Below are positions 465 through 34,856 of a stretch of DNA of 39,320 bases, piece by piece. Source of the DNA: Methylococcaceae bacterium (lineage in GTDB: Bacteria > Pseudomonadota > Gammaproteobacteria > Methylococcales > Methylomonadaceae); NCBI GenBank assembly GCA_006844585.1, contig SPJM01000089.1:1-39320 (forward strand), read 5' to 3'. A model generated the notes under the pieces. That model searched no databases. It was not told where the DNA came from and saw nothing but the letters and a program-made list of their open reading frames with translations. The translations under genes were made by a program, and so were the position numbers. Position 1 is the first letter of the stretch. Every line of letters begins with the position of its first letter.

Positions 465-3122
465 ATGGCCATTAACAACTACGTGCTTTGGGGTGATGAT
501 GGCAAGCCACTGGCCGTGGTCGAGGCGAAGAAAACCACCGTCGATGCCCAAGTCGGCCAGCAACAGGCCAAGCTGTATGCCGACTGCCTGGAGCAGATGC
601 ACGGCCAACGCCCGCTAATCTTTTACACCAATGGCTACGAAACCTGGTTGTGGGACGATGCCTTCTACCCACCGCGCCAGATTGCTGGCTACTATAAAAA
701 GGATGAACTTCAACGCCTGCTGCTGCGCCGGAGCCAATGCGCCACGCTGGTTGTCGCCGAGATCAAGGATGTGATTGCCGGACGTTACTACCAGAAACGT
801 GCTATCAGCAGCATCTTCACCCAGTTCGGAAAAGCACGCCGCAAGGCTCTGCTGGTGATGGCAACCGGTACCGGTAAGACCCGTACTGCCATCGCCCTGA
901 CCGATGTGCTGCAACGCGCTAGCTGGGCCAAGCGTGTGCTGTTTCTGGCGGACCGGGTCTCGCTGGTGAATCAGGCAGCCAACGCATTCAAGGCGCATCT
1001 GCCCGAATCCAGCCCGGTGAATCTGGTCACTGAGAAGGACACCGAGGGCAGGGTTTACGTCTCTACCTATCCGACCATGATGGGGTTGATTGATACCACC
1101 AAGGGCAGCGAGGCACGCTTTGGCGTGGGGCATTTTGATCTGCTGATTATCGATGAAGCGCACCGCTCGGTGTACCAGAAGTACGGCGCGATCTTCCGTT
1201 ACTTCGACTCCCTGCTGGTGGGCCTAACCGCCACGCCCCGCGAAGAAGTGGACCGCAACACCTACGACCTGTTCGAGCTGGAACCTGGCGTACCCACCGA
1301 TGCCTACGAGCTGGAAACTGCCGTCAAAGACGGCTTTCTGGTACCGCCGCGTGTGCAGCAGGTCGATCTCAAATTCCCCCGCGAGGGCATCGACTACGAT
1401 GCGCTGAGTGATGAAGAAAAAGCCGAATGGGAAAGCCTAGACTGGGGCGATGACGTGGACGAACGCGGCCTACCGACGCATGTGAACTCGGCGGCGATTA
1501 ACAGTTGGCTGTTTAACAAAGACACCGTGGACAAGGTGCTGCAATACCTGATGGAACATGGCCACAAGGTGGATGGCGGGGATCGTCTGGCCAAGACCAT
1601 CATCTTTGCCCGCAACCACGACCATGCCAAATTCATCGAGGAACGCTTCAACCACCACTATCCGCACTTCAAAGGCCAGTTTGCACGCATCATCGACAAC
1701 TACGCCAAGTACCCGCAAAGCCTGATCGATGACTTCTCACAGTACGAGAAAGCCCCGCATATCGCTATCTCGGTGGATATGCTCGACACCGGCATCGATG
1801 TGCCCGAAGTGGCCAACCTGGTGTTCTTCAAGCCGGTGTATTCCAAGATCAAATTCTGGCAGATGATCGGGCGCGGTACCCGTCTGTGCCCGGATCTGTT
1901 CGGTCCGGAAGAAGACAAGCCTGACTTCCGCGTGTTCGACTTCTGCTTCAACTTCGATTTCTTCCGCGAGAACCCGAAAGGCATTGAAGGCAGTGGGTCT
2001 GCCCCGCTGGGTACCCGCCTGTTCCGCGCACGGGTTGAGTTGCTGTCCCAGGTGCAAGGCAGCGCCGATCTCGATCCGGAAGCTCTACTGGGCAATGCCC
2101 TGACCAACGAACTGCATGGCGAGGTCACCGCCATGAACCCGGAAAATTTCATCGTGCGCATGCACCTGAAGGCCGTGGAGCGGTTTCGTGAACGCGATGC
2201 CTGGCAGCAACTGTCTGACGACGACCGGGAAACTCTGCAACAGGACGTTGCCGGCCTGCCGAATGAGCAGGCACCGGACGATATTGAATCGCGGCTGTTC
2301 GACCTGATGGCGCTGCGCATGCAACTGGCACTGGCCAAAGACGAAGGCGGTCCGTTTGAGACCCTGCGCCAGAAGGTCATCGAGATCGCCATGCTGCTGG
2401 AGGAGAAGACCAGCATCCCAGCGGTAAAACAGCAACTGGGTTACCTGGCCGACCTGCAGGAGAGTGCGTTCTGGGAGGATATGACGCTTCAGATGTTGGA
2501 AGATATGCGTCTGCGCCTGCGTGGACTGATGCCATTCCTGGACAAGAAAAAGCGCAAGATCGTCTATACCAACTTCCAGGATGAAATTATCGGGGTGCGG
2601 GAAGATGCGCCTGTCTACATGCCCAAGATGACCGGGGCGCAGTACGAGAAGAAGGTGAAGGATTACCTGCGCAATCACCAGGACCACCTGCTGATTCAGC
2701 GCCTGCGTACCAACCAACCGCTGACCGAAACCGATCTGCAGGGCCTGGAGCAGATGCTCATCGAGATCGGTGAAGACGATGGACAGGCACTGTATGAAGG
2801 CTTGCTGGAACGCAGCGGCGCTCCCTCATTGCCCTGGTTTGTCCGCAGCCTGGTCGGCATGGACCGCGCAGCCGCTCAACAAGCCTTCTCACAATTTCTC
2901 GGCGACCGTAGCCTCAATGCCCAACAGATCCGCTTCGTGGAACAGGTGATCGATCAGCTGACCGCACGCGGGGTGATGGAGGCCAAGGCGCTGTATGAGC
3001 CTCCGTTCAGTGCACTACACAGCGGTGGGCCTGATGAGCTGTTTACAGGGAGAGAGAATGTGATCGACGCTGTATTCGATGCCCTGAAATCCCTGGAACC
3101 ACAGGTCCAGGGCGTTGCGTAA
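465..3122 (+). pseudogene. hsdR: Type I restriction enzyme R subunit (HsdR), 5'-truncated at the insertion sequence
   Basis: HsdR is the motor and nuclease subunit of type I restriction systems. The 885 codons left cover the end of the HSDR_N nuclease domain (PLAVVEAKKT, residues 15-24, gives the E-x-K of the PD-(D/E)xK site), then a superfamily 2 helicase: Walker A ATGTGKT (133-139), DEAH (230-233), TATP (255-258) and the motif V/VI stretch DTGIDVPEVANLVFF onward. An EcoEI-type C-terminal domain follows. Homologues of this subtype are longer by roughly 200 or more residues at the N-terminus. Here an in-frame TAA lies directly before the ATG, next to the insertion sequence end, so the gene was cut. 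Most relatives have Asp before YVL in the nuclease motif; here it is Asn (residue 5). Base composition is clearly richer in G and C than the neighbours, suggesting transfer. No hsdM or hsdS follows. Confidence 0.85.
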
Positions 3123-3229
3123 TGATCAGCGAGGCCACAATCAGAGAATGCCCAACAAGGCGCTGTACTCGGACAGCAATTCCGCTGTGCCCCATTGCAG
3201 CAGGTGACCTTGGTCGTTAGCTGTAAAAA

Positions 3230-3388
3230 ATGGAATACGAAGATATCTACAATCTATCTATGAAATTTGGCCCTCCCAAGATTGATCTTAGGAAGGCTCA
3301 AATCCTCGATGATTACGGAGATGAATCTTATGCAAAACTGGAGAAACCAAGGGGTCAGGAAACCAAGGGGTCAGCCAACTTGAAATAG
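3230..3388 (+). CDS. Small hypothetical ORF, 52 residues, possibly not a gene
   Basis: The frame runs from ATG at 3230 to TAG at 3386-3388 and starts MEYEDIYNLSMKFGPPK. I do not recognise it. Its last 15 or so residues are encoded by the 16-bp tandem repeat, which suggests that the natural end of the reading frame has been replaced by repeat sequence, or that the frame is accidental. There is no convincing ribosome site (AGCTGTAAAAA precedes the ATG). The charged, proline-containing start could be a remnant of a larger protein lost when this region decayed. Confidence 0.25.
   Translation: MEYEDIYNLSMKFGPPKIDLRKAQILDDYGDESYAKLEKPRGQETKGSANLK
3343..3374. repeat. Perfect 16-bp tandem duplication
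   Basis: GAAACCAAGGGGTCAG occurs at 3343-3358 and again directly after it at 3359-3374 without a mismatch. The core AAGGGGTCAG recurs at 4445-4454, and close variants with CCAAAGGGG occur at 3582-3590 and, reversed, at 4479-4488. Confidence 0.9.
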
Positions 3389-14557: not shown

Positions 14558-14588
14558 AGGCAGTGTTAACTCCAGGTTAACACTGCCT
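14558..14588 (-). terminator. Rho-independent terminator after the diiron gene
   Basis: A perfect 13-bp stem, AGGCAGTGTTAAC (14558-14570) with GTTAACACTGCCT (14576-14588), closes a five-base loop and is followed on the minus strand by TTTTTATT. It lies between the diiron gene stop and the CAP gene start, so the two are separate transcripts. Confidence 0.9.
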
Positions 14589-18964: not shown

Positions 18965-19786
18965 TTGACAAAAATTATTACTGTACTGTTACTTTGCTTA
19001 ACTTCCACTGTACAAGCTGGGATCTATCAATGGAAGGATCCTCAAGGCAATACCCATTACTCCGATCGCCCTAAGCGCCATGCAAAACGCATCGACATTT
19101 CGCCCGGCTATCATTTTCAACGGGTCAGCAAGGTTTACGATGGCGATACGATACAGCTCGCCAACGGCGAAAAAATCCGACTGGCCGGCATCAACACCCC
19201 TGAAATTGAAAGCCGTTATCGCCAAGAGGAACCAGGCGGCGATCAGGCCAAACAGTGGGTAACGGAACGCCTTGCAGGCAAAAAAATTCGCTTGGAAACC
19301 GATTTAGAAAAACACGATAAATATCGTCGAAAAATCGCCCATATTTTTGCTGAAAACAAAGAACACATCAATGCCATATTAGTCGCAGAGGGCTTGGCGT
19401 TTGTACGCATGCATCCGCCGAATTTAAAATATAGCGATTTATTATTCAACAAACAAGTTCAAGCCCGGTCAGCCAATAAAGGGATTTGGGCAAACAATTA
19501 CTATGGTCCAACACCTTACACCCAATTTTCCGACAAAGCGCCGAAACAGTGGCAACGGGTAACAGGTCGCATCACCCGCATTAAACCGACCCGAAAAAAT
19601 ATTTATCTGAAGTTTTCAGATACTTTTGCAATAAAAATTGCCAAAAAGCATCAACACCTTTTTCCAGAGCTCAATAGACTGTTAAATAAACAAATAGAAG
19701 TCAGAGGATGGATCAGAAGGTCCTATGGGAAATTACATTTACAAATCACCCATCCGGGCGATATTTCGATGATAGATACAAAATAA
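18965..19786 (+). CDS. Exported thermonuclease-like protein with DUF4124 domain
   Basis: The 273-residue protein has a signal peptide (MTKIITVLLLCLTSTVQA), a DUF4124 segment (GIYQWKDPQGNTHYSDRP, 19-36), then a staphylococcal-nuclease fold with KVYDGDTI (56-63), IRLAGINTPE (71-80) and DKYRRKIAHIF (118-128). A C-terminal extension (RVTGRITRIKP onward) looks like an extra OB-type domain. In the reference nuclease the second metal ligand is the Asp in DTPE; here it is Asn77. The Arg and Glu positions (Arg72, Glu80, Arg121/122) are kept. The start is TTG 18965 because no ATG is in frame before the signal peptide. It is followed by a strong terminator, so it is probably transcribed alone and works in the periplasm or outside. 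Confidence 0.88.
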   Translation: MTKIITVLLLCLTSTVQAGIYQWKDPQGNTHYSDRPKRHAKRIDISPGYHFQRVSKVYDGDTIQLANGEKIRLAGINTPEIESRYRQEEPGGDQAKQWVTERLAGKKIRLETDLEKHDKYRRKIAHIFAENKEHINAILVAEGLAFVRMHPPNLKYSDLLFNKQVQARSANKGIWANNYYGPTPYTQFSDKAPKQWQRVTGRITRIKPTRKNIYLKFSDTFAIKIAKKHQHLFPELNRLLNKQIEVRGWIRRSYGKLHLQITHPGDISMIDTK

Positions 19787-19814
19787 AAACGCCGCTATAA
19801 ATAGGCGGCGTTTT
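19786..19814. terminator. Bidirectional terminator between convergent genes
   Basis: AAAACGCCGC (19786-19795) pairs with GCGGCGTTTT (19805-19814), a 10-bp stem with T-runs in both directions. It begins at the nuclease stop codon and precedes the end of the minus-strand OmpA-like gene. Confidence 0.85.
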
Positions 19815-23131: not shown

Positions 23132-23161
23132 TCGCATCCATTGCAATAGTAATGGATGCGA
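23132..23161. terminator. Terminator between tRNA genes and sensor kinase
   Basis: TCGCATCCATT (23132-23142) pairs perfectly with AATGGATGCGA (23151-23161). It ends the tRNA transcript and lies three bases from the stop of the convergent kinase gene. The T-tracts are short on both sides. Confidence 0.7.
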
Positions 23162-23164
23162 CTC

Positions 23165-26020
23165 TTACTCATCTTCCAAAATATTATTGACTGCGCTCAG
23201 CAATTTAGCAATATTAATCGGCTTGGTAATATAATCCGTAAATCCCGCATCCATTCCTTTTTTAATATCACTGTCCCGCGCATTTGCCGTCACTGCGATT
23301 ACCGGAATGCTCTTGGTCGCATCGTTCCGTTGCAAGATTTTTAAAATATCATAACCGCTTTGCCCAGGAAGGTTAATATCCAACAAAATAAGATCCGGCA
23401 AATGGGTAAAAGCTAAATCGATGCCTAGCTTCCCATCCGGCGCGGAAATTAAATCATAGGAACTGTGTTTTTGGATGACTTTAGTCACTACCGTCAAATT
23501 GGCCGGATTATCTTCCACATATAAAATCGTTTTACCCGTTTTTTCCTGAATACGCTCTTTTTGTTGCTGTTCGCCGCTGAGCAAATTTTCCGATAAATTT
23601 GCCGCCGCGCCTTCCATCTCAGATTGATACGCCTGCAACTCTATCCAAAATGAACTCCCCTGACTTATGCCGCTCTGCACACCTATTCGTCCGTCCATCA
23701 TTTCAACCAAACGTTTACTAATGACCAGCCCAATCCCTGTTCCTTCAATATTCGAATTTTCCAAGCCCATACGGTTAAATTCTTGGAAAATTTGTTGCTG
23801 ATCCTCTTCGCTGAGCCCTATGCCGGTATCGGTTACGGTGATTCTGATCGTCTCTTTGCTAAGCGCCACACATTCCACATCTACGCGCCCTTTATTTTGA
23901 TTATATTTAATCGCATTCGATAATAAATTCAATAATACCTGTTTAATCCGCATATAATCGCCTTTAACGCGAAAACGACTGACAGGCTTCTGCAAATATA
24001 TTTCTCTTTGCTCAGCTAACGGGGTAATCAGTGAAAAACATTCGGTAAAAACATCATCTAAAAGTACATTTTCAATCGATAAACTTAATTTACCGGATTC
24101 AATCGCCGCTAAATCCAAAATATCGTTAATTAATCTTAATAAATGCTCTCCCGCTTTGAGAATTTCAACCACATTTGAAATGGACTCTTCATCTTCCACA
24201 TCGATTTTCAATAACTGACCAAACCCTAAGATCGCGTTTAAAGGCGTTCTCAACTCATGACTCATGGAAGACAAAAAATCTGATTTAGCTTGACTGGCCT
24301 TCTCCGCCTGCTCTTTGGCGACAGCCAAATTGACTTCATATTTTTTATGTTCGCTTATATCGGAACACCAGATTAAAGTGGTCGCTTGAGATTTAAATTC
24401 TGTCGCAACCAAAGACATCAAACCCCAACCCTCTGTTTGATCTCGTCTTATAAATTTAACCTCTTTATTGTAAATATGCCCCTTCGCTTTTAATTCAGTC
24501 TGGATGCTTTCATAGTCATCTTCGGAAGCATAAATAAGGGCTTCTGTCATGGTCAACAAAGTTTGCTGATCACATCCCAATAATGTCGATGCGCCGTTAT
24601 TTGCAAAGGTAATTGCACCTTGTTGATTCGACATTAAAATAGCAATCGGACTGGACTGCAGAATATGCCTGAATTGACTTTCTTTGGCCCTAATTTGCGC
24701 CGTCCGCTCAATAACCTTGGTTTCAAGCTCATCGCGTGAACTATGCAAAACTCGATTAGTTCTCATCGCCATGGAAATAATAAAAACAAAAGTCCCTAAG
24801 GTAACCAAAACCACTATCGTCAAGATAAAAATAATCACATTCCGAGAAGCAAAATAAGAAGATAACGCCTCCTCCTCGTCTATTTCGGTAGTAATGCCGA
24901 TTCCCAATTTCGGCAACCAAGCCCATGCGCCTATCACCCTAACGCCTCGATAATCTCGATAACCGTCAACATTTTGCCCGATATTTCTTTTTAATACCTG
25001 TTGCGCCATTTTAGTTAAAGGTCTTTGTTCAGGAGCGGCAACAGCTTTTAAACCTTTGCTTAAGTTTACCCCCGGATCGGAAATGGTTATTGATAAAACG
25101 CTACTTTGACTCTGCTCTAACAAACCTATTTCCAACAAATGATCTTCAAAACGACTTTCTGAGATTAACAACCCCCGACTGTCTACAGCATAAGTTTCAC
25201 CGGATTCGCCAATCCGTCCGGTACGCAAAATTTCTGAAAATTGCATACCCGGATCTAACCTATTGGTAAAAACAGCAATGACAGCACCCGCCTTATTTTT
25301 AATCGGCGTCGCGATAAACATGGTTGGAGGAGTTGCTATATCTCGATGTTTTGCGGTTTTGATATGAACATCAGAATAAACAGGCGGAATGAATACCGTT
25401 TCACCGTTAAAAACCCTTTTCAATAACGCTGGCTTTTGCTCAGCGATGAGATTAACAGCCCCCAAATTACTATCTCTCATTGAACCAATATTAATATTGT
25501 TTCTATCAATTACAAAAAATCCTAAGCCCCCTAAAATCGGCTTTTCCTGTTGATGAAATTTTCTTAATGCTTGCGTCACTTCGGCCTGCAATAAAGCTTG
25601 TTTATTCGGGGGTTGTTGCATTAATTGTTCAACATAACTGACTAGCTGTTCATTTTTACCAATATGCTGAATGACCGAACTTTTATTTTGGAGCCAGACC
25701 ATTAGGCTTTCGATAGAAGTATCACGCACTGATTTAAGCATTTCTTCCGCATCCGAAAGCACTTTTTGTTTATTTAAACGTAAACCCGCCCAGCTTGTAG
25801 TTATGATGACGACCACGAAAACCAATAATGAAAACCCCATATACAGATTAAATTTACCGGCATTAAATTCATTATCCGGCTGCTCGGATTTCAATAATTT
25901 ATAAAAAAAATACAGTGAAAAAAATAAAAAAACAGTACAAAAAGCCAGAATCAACAATGGCAAACCATATTGATAATGATAAAGTTGAAAAAAATATTCA
26001 AATAAGAAATCAGCGGACAT
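23165..26020 (-). CDS. Hybrid sensor histidine kinase with extracytoplasmic sensor, PAS and receiver domains
   Basis: Numbering from ATG 26020 (951 residues; TTG two codons earlier rejected): two N-terminal membrane helices (about 18-42 and 58-80), an extracytoplasmic Cache-like sensor (about 90-385), a further helix (395-420), a PAS domain (445-560), a HisKA domain with the phospho-accepting His588 in SMSHELRTPLNAIL, an HATPase domain with NLLSNAIKYN and GTGIGLVISKRL, and a C-terminal receiver with VEDN at 835-838, Asp881 in LLDINLPG and Lys in TKP. It should sense an outside signal and pass phosphate from His to its own Asp. No response regulator or HPt gene is nearby, so its output is unknown. 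A GAGG-type ribosome site is not evident. Confidence 0.93.
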   Translation of the reverse strand: MSADFLFEYFFQLYHYQYGLPLLILAFCTVFLFFSLYFFYKLLKSEQPDNEFNAGKFNLYMGFSLLVFVVVIITTSWAGLRLNKQKVLSDAEEMLKSVRDTSIESLMVWLQNKSSVIQHIGKNEQLVSYVEQLMQQPPNKQALLQAEVTQALRKFHQQEKPILGGLGFFVIDRNNINIGSMRDSNLGAVNLIAEQKPALLKRVFNGETVFIPPVYSDVHIKTAKHRDIATPPTMFIATPIKNKAGAVIAVFTNRLDPGMQFSEILRTGRIGESGETYAVDSRGLLISESRFEDHLLEIGLLEQSQSSVLSITISDPGVNLSKGLKAVAAPEQRPLTKMAQQVLKRNIGQNVDGYRDYRGVRVIGAWAWLPKLGIGITTEIDEEEALSSYFASRNVIIFILTIVVLVTLGTFVFIISMAMRTNRVLHSSRDELETKVIERTAQIRAKESQFRHILQSSPIAILMSNQQGAITFANNGASTLLGCDQQTLLTMTEALIYASEDDYESIQTELKAKGHIYNKEVKFIRRDQTEGWGLMSLVATEFKSQATTLIWCSDISEHKKYEVNLAVAKEQAEKASQAKSDFLSSMSHELRTPLNAILGFGQLLKIDVEDEESISNVVEILKAGEHLLRLINDILDLAAIESGKLSLSIENVLLDDVFTECFSLITPLAEQREIYLQKPVSRFRVKGDYMRIKQVLLNLLSNAIKYNQNKGRVDVECVALSKETIRITVTDTGIGLSEEDQQQIFQEFNRMGLENSNIEGTGIGLVISKRLVEMMDGRIGVQSGISQGSSFWIELQAYQSEMEGAAANLSENLLSGEQQQKERIQEKTGKTILYVEDNPANLTVVTKVIQKHSSYDLISAPDGKLGIDLAFTHLPDLILLDINLPGQSGYDILKILQRNDATKSIPVIAVTANARDSDIKKGMDAGFTDYITKPINIAKLLSAVNNILEDE

Positions 26021-26160: not shown

Positions 26161-28431
26161 TTAAATTTGCGACAACCAATAACGCTGATGTTGTTTCCGA
26201 GCGCTGTTAAAGATCAGTCTGCCGTTACCGGAAAATACGGTTATAGCCCCATGCTGATAACTATTCAACCACTCGATCCGATGTCGTCTATACCTATCTA
26301 TAACTTCTTGATGAGGAAAACCGAAGCGGTTTCGATATCCGGCCGGAATCAGGATTTTGTCGGGATCGACTTGCTGAAGAAAAATAACCGACGAAGAGGT
26401 TTTACTGCCGTGATGCGGAGCAATCATAACATCACTTTTCAAATTGCTTCCGTAAGCCCCCGCCAGCCATTTTTCCGCCTCTTTTTCTATATCGCCGGTC
26501 AATAAAAAACGGTGATCTTGAGCCGTTATTTTCAATACACAGGAATTGTTATTTTCAGAGCTGAACTTGTTTGTCGATGGCGGCGATAATATTTCAAACG
26601 TAACTTCATCCCAAACCCATGACTGTCCTGTTATGCATAATTGCCCAATCTGATGAAACGAATCAATGGCTTGACTTACCATAATTTGTTGTACAGAAAT
26701 CGCCTGAATGATGGATTGAGCGCCGCCGATATGATCATTATCGCCATGACTGACGATCAACATATCAACCTTACCAATTCCTTGATTAACCAAATAGGGC
26801 AAAACCGCCGCTTTACCTAAATCAAATTGATCTGAATAACGCGCACCAGCATCAAACAACAAAACATGATTTTGCGTTTCGATGACCACTGCCAAACCCT
26901 GACCAACATCCAACATCGTCAGTTTCAATTCACCGCTTTGTATTGTTTGTTTTTCAAAGGTCAACAACGGTAAAAACAAAAACATACTAAGATACCGACC
27001 TGGAACGCCTCTAGGCATAAACAAAATCAGCACGCCGAATAATGCGAAAAGCAGTGTAATATTATCCGGTGGAAAAAAATCAATTGCGGAATAAGGCAAA
27101 CTCTTTGCGTAATCTAATCCCGTCCACAGCAAATTCAAACTAAAATCACACAATCGCCATAACGGTATTGAAAAATCCGGGGCGACCAGAAATGCAATTA
27201 CAGCCGACAAAGCCATAGGCGTGACCAATAAGCTGAAAACCGGCACCGCCACCCAATTCGCTATCGGCGCAATGATTGAGACTTTTGCGAAATAAAACGC
27301 CGTTAACGGTGCCAACCCAACCGCCAGTAAGCAATGGATTTTCCCGTTCAAGAAACCGGAAGCCGCTTTCTTCAATTGTCCGCTATAGGCATACATAATC
27401 AAAAAAACGGCGGTAAATGACAACCAAAAGCTTACCGATAATACCGCCAAAGGGTCCCATAAAACAATTAACAACAAAGCGACAGAAACCGCTCTGGCCA
27501 ACGGCAAATGGCGCTGCCAAATAATTGCCGCCAAAACCACCGATAACATGATTAAAGCGCGTTGCGTAGGTAATGAAAAACCGGCCAAAGCTGCGTAGAG
27601 CAATGCGGCGACAAACGCCGAGCAGGCCGCAATAATTTGCGGCGAGTATTTTTTTATATAGATTAATGCCCAAAGCCTGATCACTAACCCATAAACCAGT
27701 CCGGCCGCCAAGCCGATATGCAAACCTGAAATAGCGATTAAATGGCTGACCCCGGTTTTTGTTAACACATCCCAATCACCAGGTGTTAACAAGGAACGGT
27801 CGCCGGTAGTCACCGCCAGCAACAAACCTTTGTAGCGGTATTCTTCAAGAAAGTATTTTAACCGTTCAATAATTTGATAACGCCATGCCGATATACTGAA
27901 TGGCGAATATTGATCCGCCAGTAACTGCGCTTGCGGTCGGTTCCTAACATAGCCAGTAGCGCCCACCTGATTAACAAAAAGCCAGCGCTCATAATCAAAA
28001 CCGCCCGGATTATAACGCCCGTAAGGTTTTTTCAGTTTCACGGTAAAGCGCCAGAATTGATTTGGTTTAACCGGTTGATCAGTTCGATACCAATTTAATC
28101 TTATTCGGGTCGGCAGTTTTTTATCGGAGTCAATAACTTTAAAATTAAACCCTACCTTATTGTTATCGCGTTTGGGATTAGATTCAATCACGCCTTGAAC
28201 GACCAATAGCCGCCCTTCTAATTCGCTGGATAAAATCGAATTAAAATGCAACTGCGCATAACCAACCACCCACACAATCCCGATAACAAAAAACATCATT
28301 CGCTTTTTTCTAAAAAAAGCTAAAACACACGCAATCACTATCAAAATAATAATGTCATAGGCATCAGGCAACGATTTCATTTGTTGTACAGCGATGACGC
28401 CCGCAACGAAACTCGCGATAGAAAAAATCAT
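26161..28431 (-). CDS. comEC: DNA uptake channel protein ComEC/Rec2
   Basis: ComEC passes single-stranded DNA through the inner membrane during natural transformation. The 756 residues are the full three-part form: an N-terminal OB-containing region (FKVIDSDKKLPTRIRLNWYR area) between early membrane helices, the competence domain with TGVSHLIAISGLHIGLAAGLVY and GFSLPTQRALIML, and a C-terminal beta-lactamase-like domain with MLDVGQGLAVVI, SHGDNDHIGGAQSI (about 560) and APHHGSKTSSSVIF. All metal-site motifs of the last domain appear present, so it may be a nuclease. ATG 28431 with AATAAAG upstream. The gene implies transformability, if pilus genes exist elsewhere. Confidence 0.96.
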   Translation of the reverse strand: MIFSIASFVAGVIAVQQMKSLPDAYDIIILIVIACVLAFFRKKRMMFFVIGIVWVVGYAQLHFNSILSSELEGRLLVVQGVIESNPKRDNNKVGFNFKVIDSDKKLPTRIRLNWYRTDQPVKPNQFWRFTVKLKKPYGRYNPGGFDYERWLFVNQVGATGYVRNRPQAQLLADQYSPFSISAWRYQIIERLKYFLEEYRYKGLLLAVTTGDRSLLTPGDWDVLTKTGVSHLIAISGLHIGLAAGLVYGLVIRLWALIYIKKYSPQIIAACSAFVAALLYAALAGFSLPTQRALIMLSVVLAAIIWQRHLPLARAVSVALLLIVLWDPLAVLSVSFWLSFTAVFLIMYAYSGQLKKAASGFLNGKIHCLLAVGLAPLTAFYFAKVSIIAPIANWVAVPVFSLLVTPMALSAVIAFLVAPDFSIPLWRLCDFSLNLLWTGLDYAKSLPYSAIDFFPPDNITLLFALFGVLILFMPRGVPGRYLSMFLFLPLLTFEKQTIQSGELKLTMLDVGQGLAVVIETQNHVLLFDAGARYSDQFDLGKAAVLPYLVNQGIGKVDMLIVSHGDNDHIGGAQSIIQAISVQQIMVSQAIDSFHQIGQLCITGQSWVWDEVTFEILSPPSTNKFSSENNNSCVLKITAQDHRFLLTGDIEKEAEKWLAGAYGSNLKSDVMIAPHHGSKTSSSVIFLQQVDPDKILIPAGYRNRFGFPHQEVIDRYRRHRIEWLNSYQHGAITVFSGNGRLIFNSARKQHQRYWLSQI

Positions 28432-29035: not shown

Positions 29036-29149
29036 TATTTCCTCATACTCATTTTCTTTCAATTATCACTGTTCTTGGCTCCTCTTGTAGCTGATACCTC
29101 TGGGGAGCCACTCCATTAAGTTAAGCGCTTAAACTGTGTTTAAGCTAAT

Positions 29150-29213
29150 GTAGGTGCGGATTTATCCACACAATGCGACTCCTCCCCAAGGGCACAAGTG
29201 AATTCGCACCTAC
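29150..29213. repeat. Opposed GTAGGTGCG units (BIME-like)
   Basis: GTAGGTGCGGATTTA at the left end faces TGAATTCGCACCTAC at the right end. Both units begin with GTAG on their own strand, as REP elements do. The sequence between them is not otherwise recognisable. Confidence 0.75.
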
Positions 29214-29401: not shown

Positions 29402-29430
29402 TTTTGCAAACCTGAATACAGTTTGCAAAA
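29402..29430. promoter_or_regulatory. Perfect inverted repeat upstream of the membrane/HTH-like gene
   Basis: TTTTGCAAAC (29402-29411) pairs exactly with GTTTGCAAAA (29421-29430), with 9 bases between the arms, about 80 bases before the next start codon. The spacing, with arm centres about 19 bases apart, would suit a dimeric DNA-binding protein. It could equally be a leader hairpin. Since the following protein has an HTH-like end, self-control is possible but unproven. Confidence 0.45.
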
Positions 29431-29511
29431 CCTCTTCGCTCACAGATAAGCCTAACACTTTGTGTTTATCAGTATTTTTTTGGATTATATACATCCATGA
29501 GAGGAAGAACA

Positions 29512-30777
29512 ATGAGTAATAATACAAACGCATTTCATTTAGGAGTTCGGTTTACCGAAATCGGCATTGCCGGCATATGGTTATTAATGCTTTATCCCAT
29601 TTTGCTATGGACTGTGGTAGGAACACTCAGCGCCTACGGTTTTCAAGACAAAGTCACTCATATTCAAGACCAGGATGGCGAAAGCCTCAGCATCCCAACC
29701 ATTATCCGTCGGGCAGAACAGTTTTATAAGATACAAGACCAAAAACAGCAATTTGAAAGTCAACTAAAACAACTTAATCAAGAAACCATCGAGATCAACA
29801 AAAAAATTATTTTTAATGAAGAAAGAAATTATCTCTGGGAACAAAAATGGGATGATTTCAAAATAAAGATCGTACCTAAATTAGATGCATTAAATGATCA
29901 GCAAAACATCGCCAATCCGGAATACTTTGATATTGCAGAAATAGGAAATGGCATTGAGAATTATAAGTCTGAACCAGACATCACTCCGCACATCAATACC
30001 TACCAACAATTCGCCTTTGAACATGAAAAAATTGAGAAAGAACATATGCGCTTTCACACCGATTTACAAAAAATCAAAACCGAAAGCCAGCTCATCAAAA
30101 AAGAAATTAACAAACACGAAGCGGAATCTTTAAAAGTGATTAAAAAAAATAATGGCGGCGATTTTATTATAGAACTGGACTATATGAGAAAGCTGAATTT
30201 CAATCACTTTGCCACCATGCCCAGCCAACTATTAACGTTGATCTTAACCATAACCATGGGAACGCTAGGAAGTTTAATTTACTTAACCATGGATTTCTTT
30301 AATGATAAAGAGAACAAATCCTTCAGTTGGTATTTATTCCGTCCATTTTTGGGCATGGTGACTGCGGTAGCTATTTTCATACTTGCCAAGGCCGGTCAGT
30401 TAACGATTTCTGACACCAGCGCCACACAAAGTCTTTCTGAAAATTTGAATCCGTTTTTTATTTCCTTCCTGGGTATTATCTCCGGTTTACTTTCCGAACA
30501 AGCCACTGAAAAGATCAGAACGGCCGGTATTTCCTTTTTTCGCTCAAGAGAAGATAAGTTCGATCAGAAACGCTGGGCGATAGGGCTTTCCAAAGCGATT
30601 CAAGAACAGGGGAAAAATACGAAAGAACTGAGCCAATATCTGAATACACCCGAAGACGTAATCAATAGCTGGGTAGAAGAGAAAAAACCGGTTCCATCAG
30701 CCGCTCAATTAATTATTTCCGCTTGGCTTAGCTTACCGGTGCGCGATCTTTTTTCGGATTTAGAGCCGGGAGCTTGA
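29512..30777 (+). CDS. Unrecognised membrane protein with coiled coil and C-terminal HTH-like segment
   Basis: I do not recognise this 421-residue protein. ATG 29512 is chosen because GAGAGGAAG lies just upstream; ATG 29497 would add five residues. It has one membrane helix (about 15-38), a charged, Gln/Lys/Glu-rich part predicted as coiled coil (63-111 and 165-210), then three hydrophobic segments (237-259, 276-295, 313-328). After a basic stretch comes a soluble tail (about 356-412) with LSKAIQEQGKNTKELSQYL and TPEDVINSWVEEKKPVPSAA, spaced like a Cro/Xre-type helix-turn-helix, ending LPVRDLFSDLE. The coiled coil would be outside the membrane and the HTH-like tail inside. A membrane-tied regulator is one reading; a tail that binds another protein is another. 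It appears to be alone in its transcript. Confidence 0.7.
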   Translation: MSNNTNAFHLGVRFTEIGIAGIWLLMLYPILLWTVVGTLSAYGFQDKVTHIQDQDGESLSIPTIIRRAEQFYKIQDQKQQFESQLKQLNQETIEINKKIIFNEERNYLWEQKWDDFKIKIVPKLDALNDQQNIANPEYFDIAEIGNGIENYKSEPDITPHINTYQQFAFEHEKIEKEHMRFHTDLQKIKTESQLIKKEINKHEAESLKVIKKNNGGDFIIELDYMRKLNFNHFATMPSQLLTLILTITMGTLGSLIYLTMDFFNDKENKSFSWYLFRPFLGMVTAVAIFILAKAGQLTISDTSATQSLSENLNPFFISFLGIISGLLSEQATEKIRTAGISFFRSREDKFDQKRWAIGLSKAIQEQGKNTKELSQYLNTPEDVINSWVEEKKPVPSAAQLIISAWLSLPVRDLFSDLEPGA

Positions 30778-30881: not shown

Positions 30882-30903
30882 GTCGGGCTGAAGCCCGACC
30901 TAC
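30882..30903 (-). repeat. REP-like palindrome with GTAG foot, copy 3
   Basis: Arms GTCGGGCT and AGCCCGAC around a short loop, GTAG foot on the minus strand, six bases beyond the leuB stop. Same orientation relative to the neighbouring minus-strand gene as copies 1 and 2. Confidence 0.85.
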
Positions 30904-30909
30904 ACGCTT

Positions 30910-32040: not shown

Positions 32041-34856
<2,816 letters not shown>

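Follow-up and report, generated by a model that had tools for sequence, protein, structure and literature searches.

The window analysed here, a stretch of 39,320 nucleotides, carries gltX, a hybrid histidine kinase gene, comEC, a DUF2062 gene, leuB and purA, and between the DUF2062 gene and leuB lies an open reading frame for a protein of 421 residues, P0001 (Table 1). The frame was found exactly where a sequence-only reading of this DNA had placed it, and its longest form opens upstream of the ATG at 29512, at the ATG at 29497. Comparison with a relative from a Spirochaetes MAG (L002) gave identities of 0.59, 0.73 and 0.34 at the three codon positions (408 codons), indicating that the gene is protein-coding. 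The earlier observation of a membrane protein encoded at this locus is confirmed.

Table 1. Features of the P0001 locus, in window coordinates.
Feature	Position	Strand	Basis
10-bp perfect inverted repeat, TTTTGCAAAC-9-GTTTGCAAAA, 9-base spacer; putative function only	29402..29430	.	sequence
Likely ribosome binding site AGAGGA	29500..29505	+	read from sequence; 6 bases before ATG 29512
Gene for membrane protein P0001 (421 residues)	29512..30777	+	ORF list; codon-position identity with L002
TM helix 1 (residues 17-35)	29560..29616	+	hydropathy
Helical hairpin (residues 61-211), presumably outside	29692..30144	+	AlphaFold2 model, two sequences
Three-TM core (residues 231-343), best conserved part	30202..30540	+	alignment; 87/113 identical to L002
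TM helix 2 (residues 240-258)	30229..30285	+	hydropathy
TM helix 3 (residues 274-292)	30331..30387	+	hydropathy
TM helix 4 (~residues 314-332)	30451..30507	+	alignment with both relatives
Likely Xre/Cro-like HTH tail (residues 352-414), presumably cytoplasmic	30565..30753	+	profile comparison, model, PHROGs
HTH helices 2-3 (residues 370-391), contact positions P-E-D	30619..30684	+	alignment with Xre domains

P0001 consists, in order, of one TM helix, a long, charged middle part of ~190 mostly helical residues, three further TM helices and a tail, and the order proposed in the sequence-only reading (a helix, a coiled-coil-rich part, three helices and a tail) was upheld by hydropathy and by alignment with two relatives. 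At a hydropathy threshold of 1.4, three segments were called in P0001 and four in each relative, TM helix 4 being under the threshold in P0001 and over it in both relatives. In an AlphaFold2 model made with two sequences, the middle part forms two long helices (residues 61-130 and 158-211) with block pLDDT values of 62 to 92, mostly ~90; the full-length model is of poor quality, its mean pLDDT being 58.6, with low confidence outside this arm, and its TM packing was left unused. We infer that the N-terminus and the tail lie inside and the arm outside. Basic residues outnumber acidic ones after TM helix 4 (7 to 4, residues 332-355), and the TM3-TM4 loop holds 1 basic and 2 acidic residues; since the N-terminus carries 1 of each and the TM2-TM3 loop 2 basic and 3 acidic, the positive-inside signal in P0001 is modest. 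The N-terminus of L002 carries 5 basic residues and 1 acidic. Structural and profile searches with the whole protein gave candidates that were rejected: in a viral Foldseek search of the full-length model nothing reached E 0.001, and the best 50 of 432 rows were for the most part tape measures and other long coiled-coil proteins, a HipB-type regulator standing at rank 31 (E 0.63), and a PDB profile search returned TRIM25 coiled coils (E 0.031 and 0.045) and four weaker matches.

Neither the curated family models nor the PDB sequences contained a match to P0001, and at E 0.1 it matched nothing in Pfam or NCBIfam. The statement that no named family has such a layout thus held in the libraries searched (Pfam, NCBIfam, PADLOC and PDB sequences), and among the literature matches listed no title dealt with this layout. 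Two sources yielded relatives with the whole layout, namely a 4.3-kb contig of the Spirochaetes MAG (L002, 43% identical, found by genome-contig scan, with the binning as given) and a Rhizobium etli plasmid (36.7% identical over residues 217-419 and 27% over the full alignment). The contig scan, which detects close relatives only, yielded this one relative out of 36 candidate stretches, and a single plasmid relative was obtained, the identical R. etli record being returned from three queries; no relatives were found in phages or in viral contigs. In whole-genome counts, which were made within the phylum and each include the source genome itself, the whole layout was present in 1 of 101 related genomes and the tail profile matched 1 of 369 genomes of the class, in both cases its own genome only. 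The full-protein profile matched 3 of the 369, the other two without the tail, and 8 of 398 genomes in the phylum sample matched, the seven besides its own by the TM core only. A profile of the core was found in 9 of 398 genomes of the phylum and 4 of 201 of the order, the three-TM core alone occurring in ~2% of sampled genomes. We conclude that the bacterial membrane protein encoded at window 29512-30777 is real, rarely found and without a name.

Conservation along the protein is uneven. Identity to L002 is 21/41 in the N-terminus with TM1, 43/176 in the arm, 87/113 in the TM core and 32/78 in the tail (10/38, 26/167, 48/112 and 22/76, respectively, for the R. etli relative), and the L002 values place the tightest constraint on the TM core, not on the HTH. 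The core recurs at low identity in unnamed proteins without an HTH tail (L004-L010, L016, L017 and L091-L093), where it stands beside other coils, TIG domains (L091, Pfam) or little else; in the members tested, the core gave no significant match in Pfam or NCBIfam. These proteins and P0001 have a loosely kept core in common. An alignment of the core (A3, 10 rows, the near-duplicates L008, L010 and L011 omitted) contains five invariant columns, four Gly and one Ala. One of these proteins, L016, combines the core with an N-terminal TM helix and a long middle part; the tail is absent, and no HTH-like sequence was found in frame past its stop. Because the core recurs with other parts and L016 keeps it without the tail, it appears to be a reusable module to which the tail has been added. 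In another, from a genome of the same family, the gene for a TIG/three-TM-core/TIG protein (L091:664-2076) is followed by a KAP/AAA-like NTPase gene at 2196-3287.

The surroundings of the gene differ from locus to locus. The synteny sample comprised 9 of the 16 relatives that had a DUF2062 match, with ~1.4 to 4.9 kb downstream covered; ComEC lay beside DUF2062 in seven of these nine stretches, and the P0001 gene or leuB in none. The G+C content of the gene is 38.6% versus 44.1% for the window, which, together with the 0/9 synteny and the patchy distribution, fits a recent arrival. The Rhizobium relative lies on a plasmid typed conjugative, with restriction- or defence-like genes (McrC-, UvrD-, MBL-fold and LmuA/Avs1a-like) nearby, and L002 adjoins a divergent gene without family assignment that has weak PADLOC effector matches (2.7e-4). 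Genomic neighbours shared by the homologues, a check proposed in the sequence-only reading, did not emerge, as none was common to the window, Rhizobium and Spirochaetes loci. On the R. etli plasmid (L003:4216-9457), a gene with a partial MBL-like domain overlaps an S8 peptidase gene; with McrC and UvrD genes close by, this may be a defence island. PADLOC models comprised 0 families matching P0001 and matched 3 of 10 window proteins (ComEC, the hybrid histidine kinase and an OmpA/MotB-like protein), matches that we read as shared general domains.

The tail had been described as spaced like a Cro/Xre HTH, and we compared it with a home-made Xre profile. This was built from 20 Xre domains (20 of 30 loci returned), all of them found in the order to which the window genome belongs and some of them near-duplicates. 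A profile of the three tails aligned with the Xre profile over 55 columns at P 6.3e-5 (probability 36%) and, with the same columns rewritten, at P 3.9e-5 (probability 70%), a value reached by 0 of 200 column shuffles (best 0.014), while the reversed alignment gave 0.007. All ten other windows of P0001 scored 0.23 or worse against the Xre profile, and a window overlapping the tail 1.5e-4. Single tails gave P values of 0.0041, 0.018 and 0.004, with three of the 151 control windows, which were taken from neighbouring genes, at 0.0065-0.0096, ahead of the Spirochaetes tail, and an HMM of the Xre set scored the three tails at 6.8, 3.4 and 2.7 bits. The window tail had five families listed in PHROGs, four of them transcription regulators (best E 0.0046); of these, phrog_2328 (phage repressors) is a weak match at that E value, matched by two of the three tails, and the best E over all three tails, 0.003, belongs to phrog_23615, a family of unknown function. 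HTH models of Pfam and NCBIfam did not match P0001, and in Pfam up to E 10 two of the three tails had no match at all, the Rhizobium tail reaching HTH_Tnp_1 (0.069) and HTH_26 (0.21), both below cut-offs. A PDB profile search with the tails returned a designed helical repeat protein (0.00024), a sigma factor (0.39) and EDF1 (4.1), all of which were rejected.

The tail appears as five short helices of low pLDDT in the whole-protein model and, when folded alone, as five helices with a core pLDDT of ~80 (mean 72.6 in the best model and 54.0-64.1 in the other four). Foldseek matches of this model are weak (best E 2.0, rmsd ~9), with 16 of 28 rows being Cro/C1-type HTH chains by title, 11 of the 16 representing one protein; among the VIA rows, six of seven are Cro/C1-type HTH chains at Z 2.0 to 2.4, and a HAD hydrolase also stands at 2.4. 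The sequence-only reading had made its case depend on a predicted HTH structure, and in this respect the outcome is mixed, with five helices and Cro/C1-type chains among the matches on one side, and E values of 2.0 or worse, Z of at most 2.4 and a HAD hydrolase at the same level on the other. The tail of P0001 is likely, though not proven, to be an Xre/Cro-like HTH.

The residues expected to face DNA are unusual in this tail. The three positions that we take to be contact positions, from Xre structures and by alignment, lie where the recognition helix begins and read PED, PEH and DKE in the three tails. Acidic residues fill 5 of these 9 cells, whereas in the 20 Xre domains they fill 2 of 60 (Fisher 2e-4, a value that treats three related tails as independent and counts some near-duplicate comparators), and the helix-2 Gln, kept in 15 of the 20 Xre domains, is by eye T, A or V in the three tails. 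The tails thus lack the usual DNA-reading residues of helices 2 and 3, and these helices are poorly kept (9/22 and 4/22). Acidic recognition helices are compatible with DNA binding. Given the acidic contact positions and a TM core better kept than the tail, DNA binding by the tail appears doubtful; of the proposal of an HTH-like, DNA-binding tail, the Xre/Cro resemblance therefore survives and the DNA binding, with contact positions unlike those of the 20 Xre domains, is left unsupported.

The 10-bp perfect inverted repeat reported about 80 bases upstream is real and lies 81 bases from the ATG at 29512. When the 476-base gap was shuffled, 22 of 2000 base shuffles gave a perfect 10-bp repeat with a spacer of up to 20, and such repeats are not rare in the window, which holds 8 comparable sites (13 overlapping rows). 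No further copy was found in the genome at up to 3 mismatches, the two relatives carry inverted repeats of different sequence upstream, and read on the minus strand the repeat also resembles a terminator hairpin. With this single genomic copy and no similar repeat in front of the relatives, its proposed role as the gene's own operator was unsupported. The description of the flanks as repeat-rich was partly right: a pattern modelled on 29149-29171 has 3 further matches at 2 other genome places at up to 2 mismatches. A REP-like hairpin, GTCGGGCTGAAGCCCGAC, at window 30882-30904 is one of 10 genome matches at up to 2 mismatches, another being at window 13251. Between leuB and purA we observed a ~260-base MITE-like element (window 32103-32362) whose imperfect terminal inverted repeats are 37 bases long (81%) and which has a hairpin inside. 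Perfect inverted repeats of at least 10 bp also stand at gene ends or between genes (window 14558-14588, 19786-19814 and 23132-23161) and inside the histidine kinase and comEC genes (window 23755-23792 and 27759-27792).

To summarize, our verdict is that P0001 is a probable membrane-anchored HTH protein built on an unnamed three-TM core. At a probability of roughly 0.4, we regard it as a RodZ-like membrane sensor or adaptor with a protein-docking HTH rather than a gene switch, and prefer docking over DNA binding from the membrane. The two-helix arm would reach into the periplasm and meet an envelope signal or partner, the three-TM core would transmit the input of the arm or do the main work in the membrane, and the cytoplasmic Xre-like HTH, lacking the usual DNA-reading surface, would dock a partner protein. 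The gene, the succession of its parts, the Xre resemblance of the tail in profile comparison and the uneven conservation are established, and from them we infer the docking, the signal and the partner alike. This reading is favoured because the tail resembles Xre domains and yet has acidic contact positions and lacks the helix-2 Gln, and because the core is best conserved and the tail-less L016 keeps the TM helix, the middle part and the core. A RodZ study (PMC6946637) describes an Xre-family HTH of a membrane protein that binds protein, not DNA. RodZ resembles P0001 in that an Xre-like HTH is attached to a membrane protein with a further, periplasmic portion. Counting against the adaptor reading are the Xre assignment itself, which is not proven, the weak positive-inside signal, and the architecture of RodZ, which is opposite in order, with an N-terminal HTH, one TM helix and a C-terminal periplasmic domain, whereas in P0001 the HTH-like part is C-terminal and follows several TM helices.

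The main rival reading, to which we give somewhat less credence, is that P0001 is a polytopic transmembrane transcription regulator, in which the arm would sense and the HTH would bind DNA from the membrane, perhaps at its own upstream repeat. The HTH resemblance in profile comparison, the weak phage-repressor matches to two of three tails (phrog_2328) and the perfect repeat 81 bases upstream, rarely equalled in shuffles, are in keeping with it, but it is opposed by the acidic contact positions, the poorly kept helices 2-3 and a repeat that is unique in the genome, unmatched at the relatives and terminator-like on the minus strand. Of the traits of a transmembrane transcription regulator, P0001 has the TM segments, and a DNA-binding-type domain by profile comparison only. 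Regulators of the ToxR/CadC type are single-pass, with an OmpR-type domain. They are like P0001 in being membrane-anchored with a cytoplasmic DNA-binding-type domain, as is HigX, for which PMC13384398 gives four predicted TM helices, a LytTR domain and no apparent periplasmic domain; the unusual contact positions and the long arm set P0001 apart from both. Transmembrane regulators are widespread according to a survey (PMC10269533), ~27% of those surveyed apparently having more than two TM regions.

It is improbable that P0001 is a mobile stress or anti-phage membrane component, with the three-TM core as effector or transmission unit and a tail that senses or is gated by a partner. The patchy distribution, the low G+C, the absence of the gene and leuB beside DUF2062 in all nine stretches of relatives, the conjugative-typed Rhizobium plasmid with its McrC-, UvrD- and LmuA/Avs1a-like genes, and the KAP/AAA-like NTPase gene that follows the distant core protein L091 point this way, but PADLOC had no match to P0001, a single island is an anecdote, and the low G+C equally fits a Lys-rich coiled coil. 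Least probable of all is that the tail is a small helical domain that is HTH-like by chance, as the near-empty Pfam results, the weak Foldseek and VIA scores with their HAD hydrolase, the modest single-tail P values alongside the three control windows and the low HMM bits would allow, since the three-sequence profile withstood all 200 shuffles, 16 of 28 Foldseek rows are Cro/C1-type HTH chains, albeit 11 of one protein, and repressor families recur in PHROGs.

Returning to the adaptor reading, its broader form, which we consider rather unlikely as a whole, makes P0001 the founder of a polytopic membrane protein family. In this family an Xre-type HTH would have been turned from DNA to protein docking and wired through a conserved three-TM core, which also serves unrelated domains, to a periplasmic coiled-coil arm, the whole being a transmembrane signalling module not described before. 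A cytoplasmic HTH domain readily leads to a membrane protein being taken for a gene regulator. If the adaptor reading is true, P0001 would give a further example of RodZ-type behaviour, with a conserved membrane core and an optional tail that lacks the usual DNA-reading face, and a membrane module without a significant Pfam or NCBIfam match in the members tested would gain a name.
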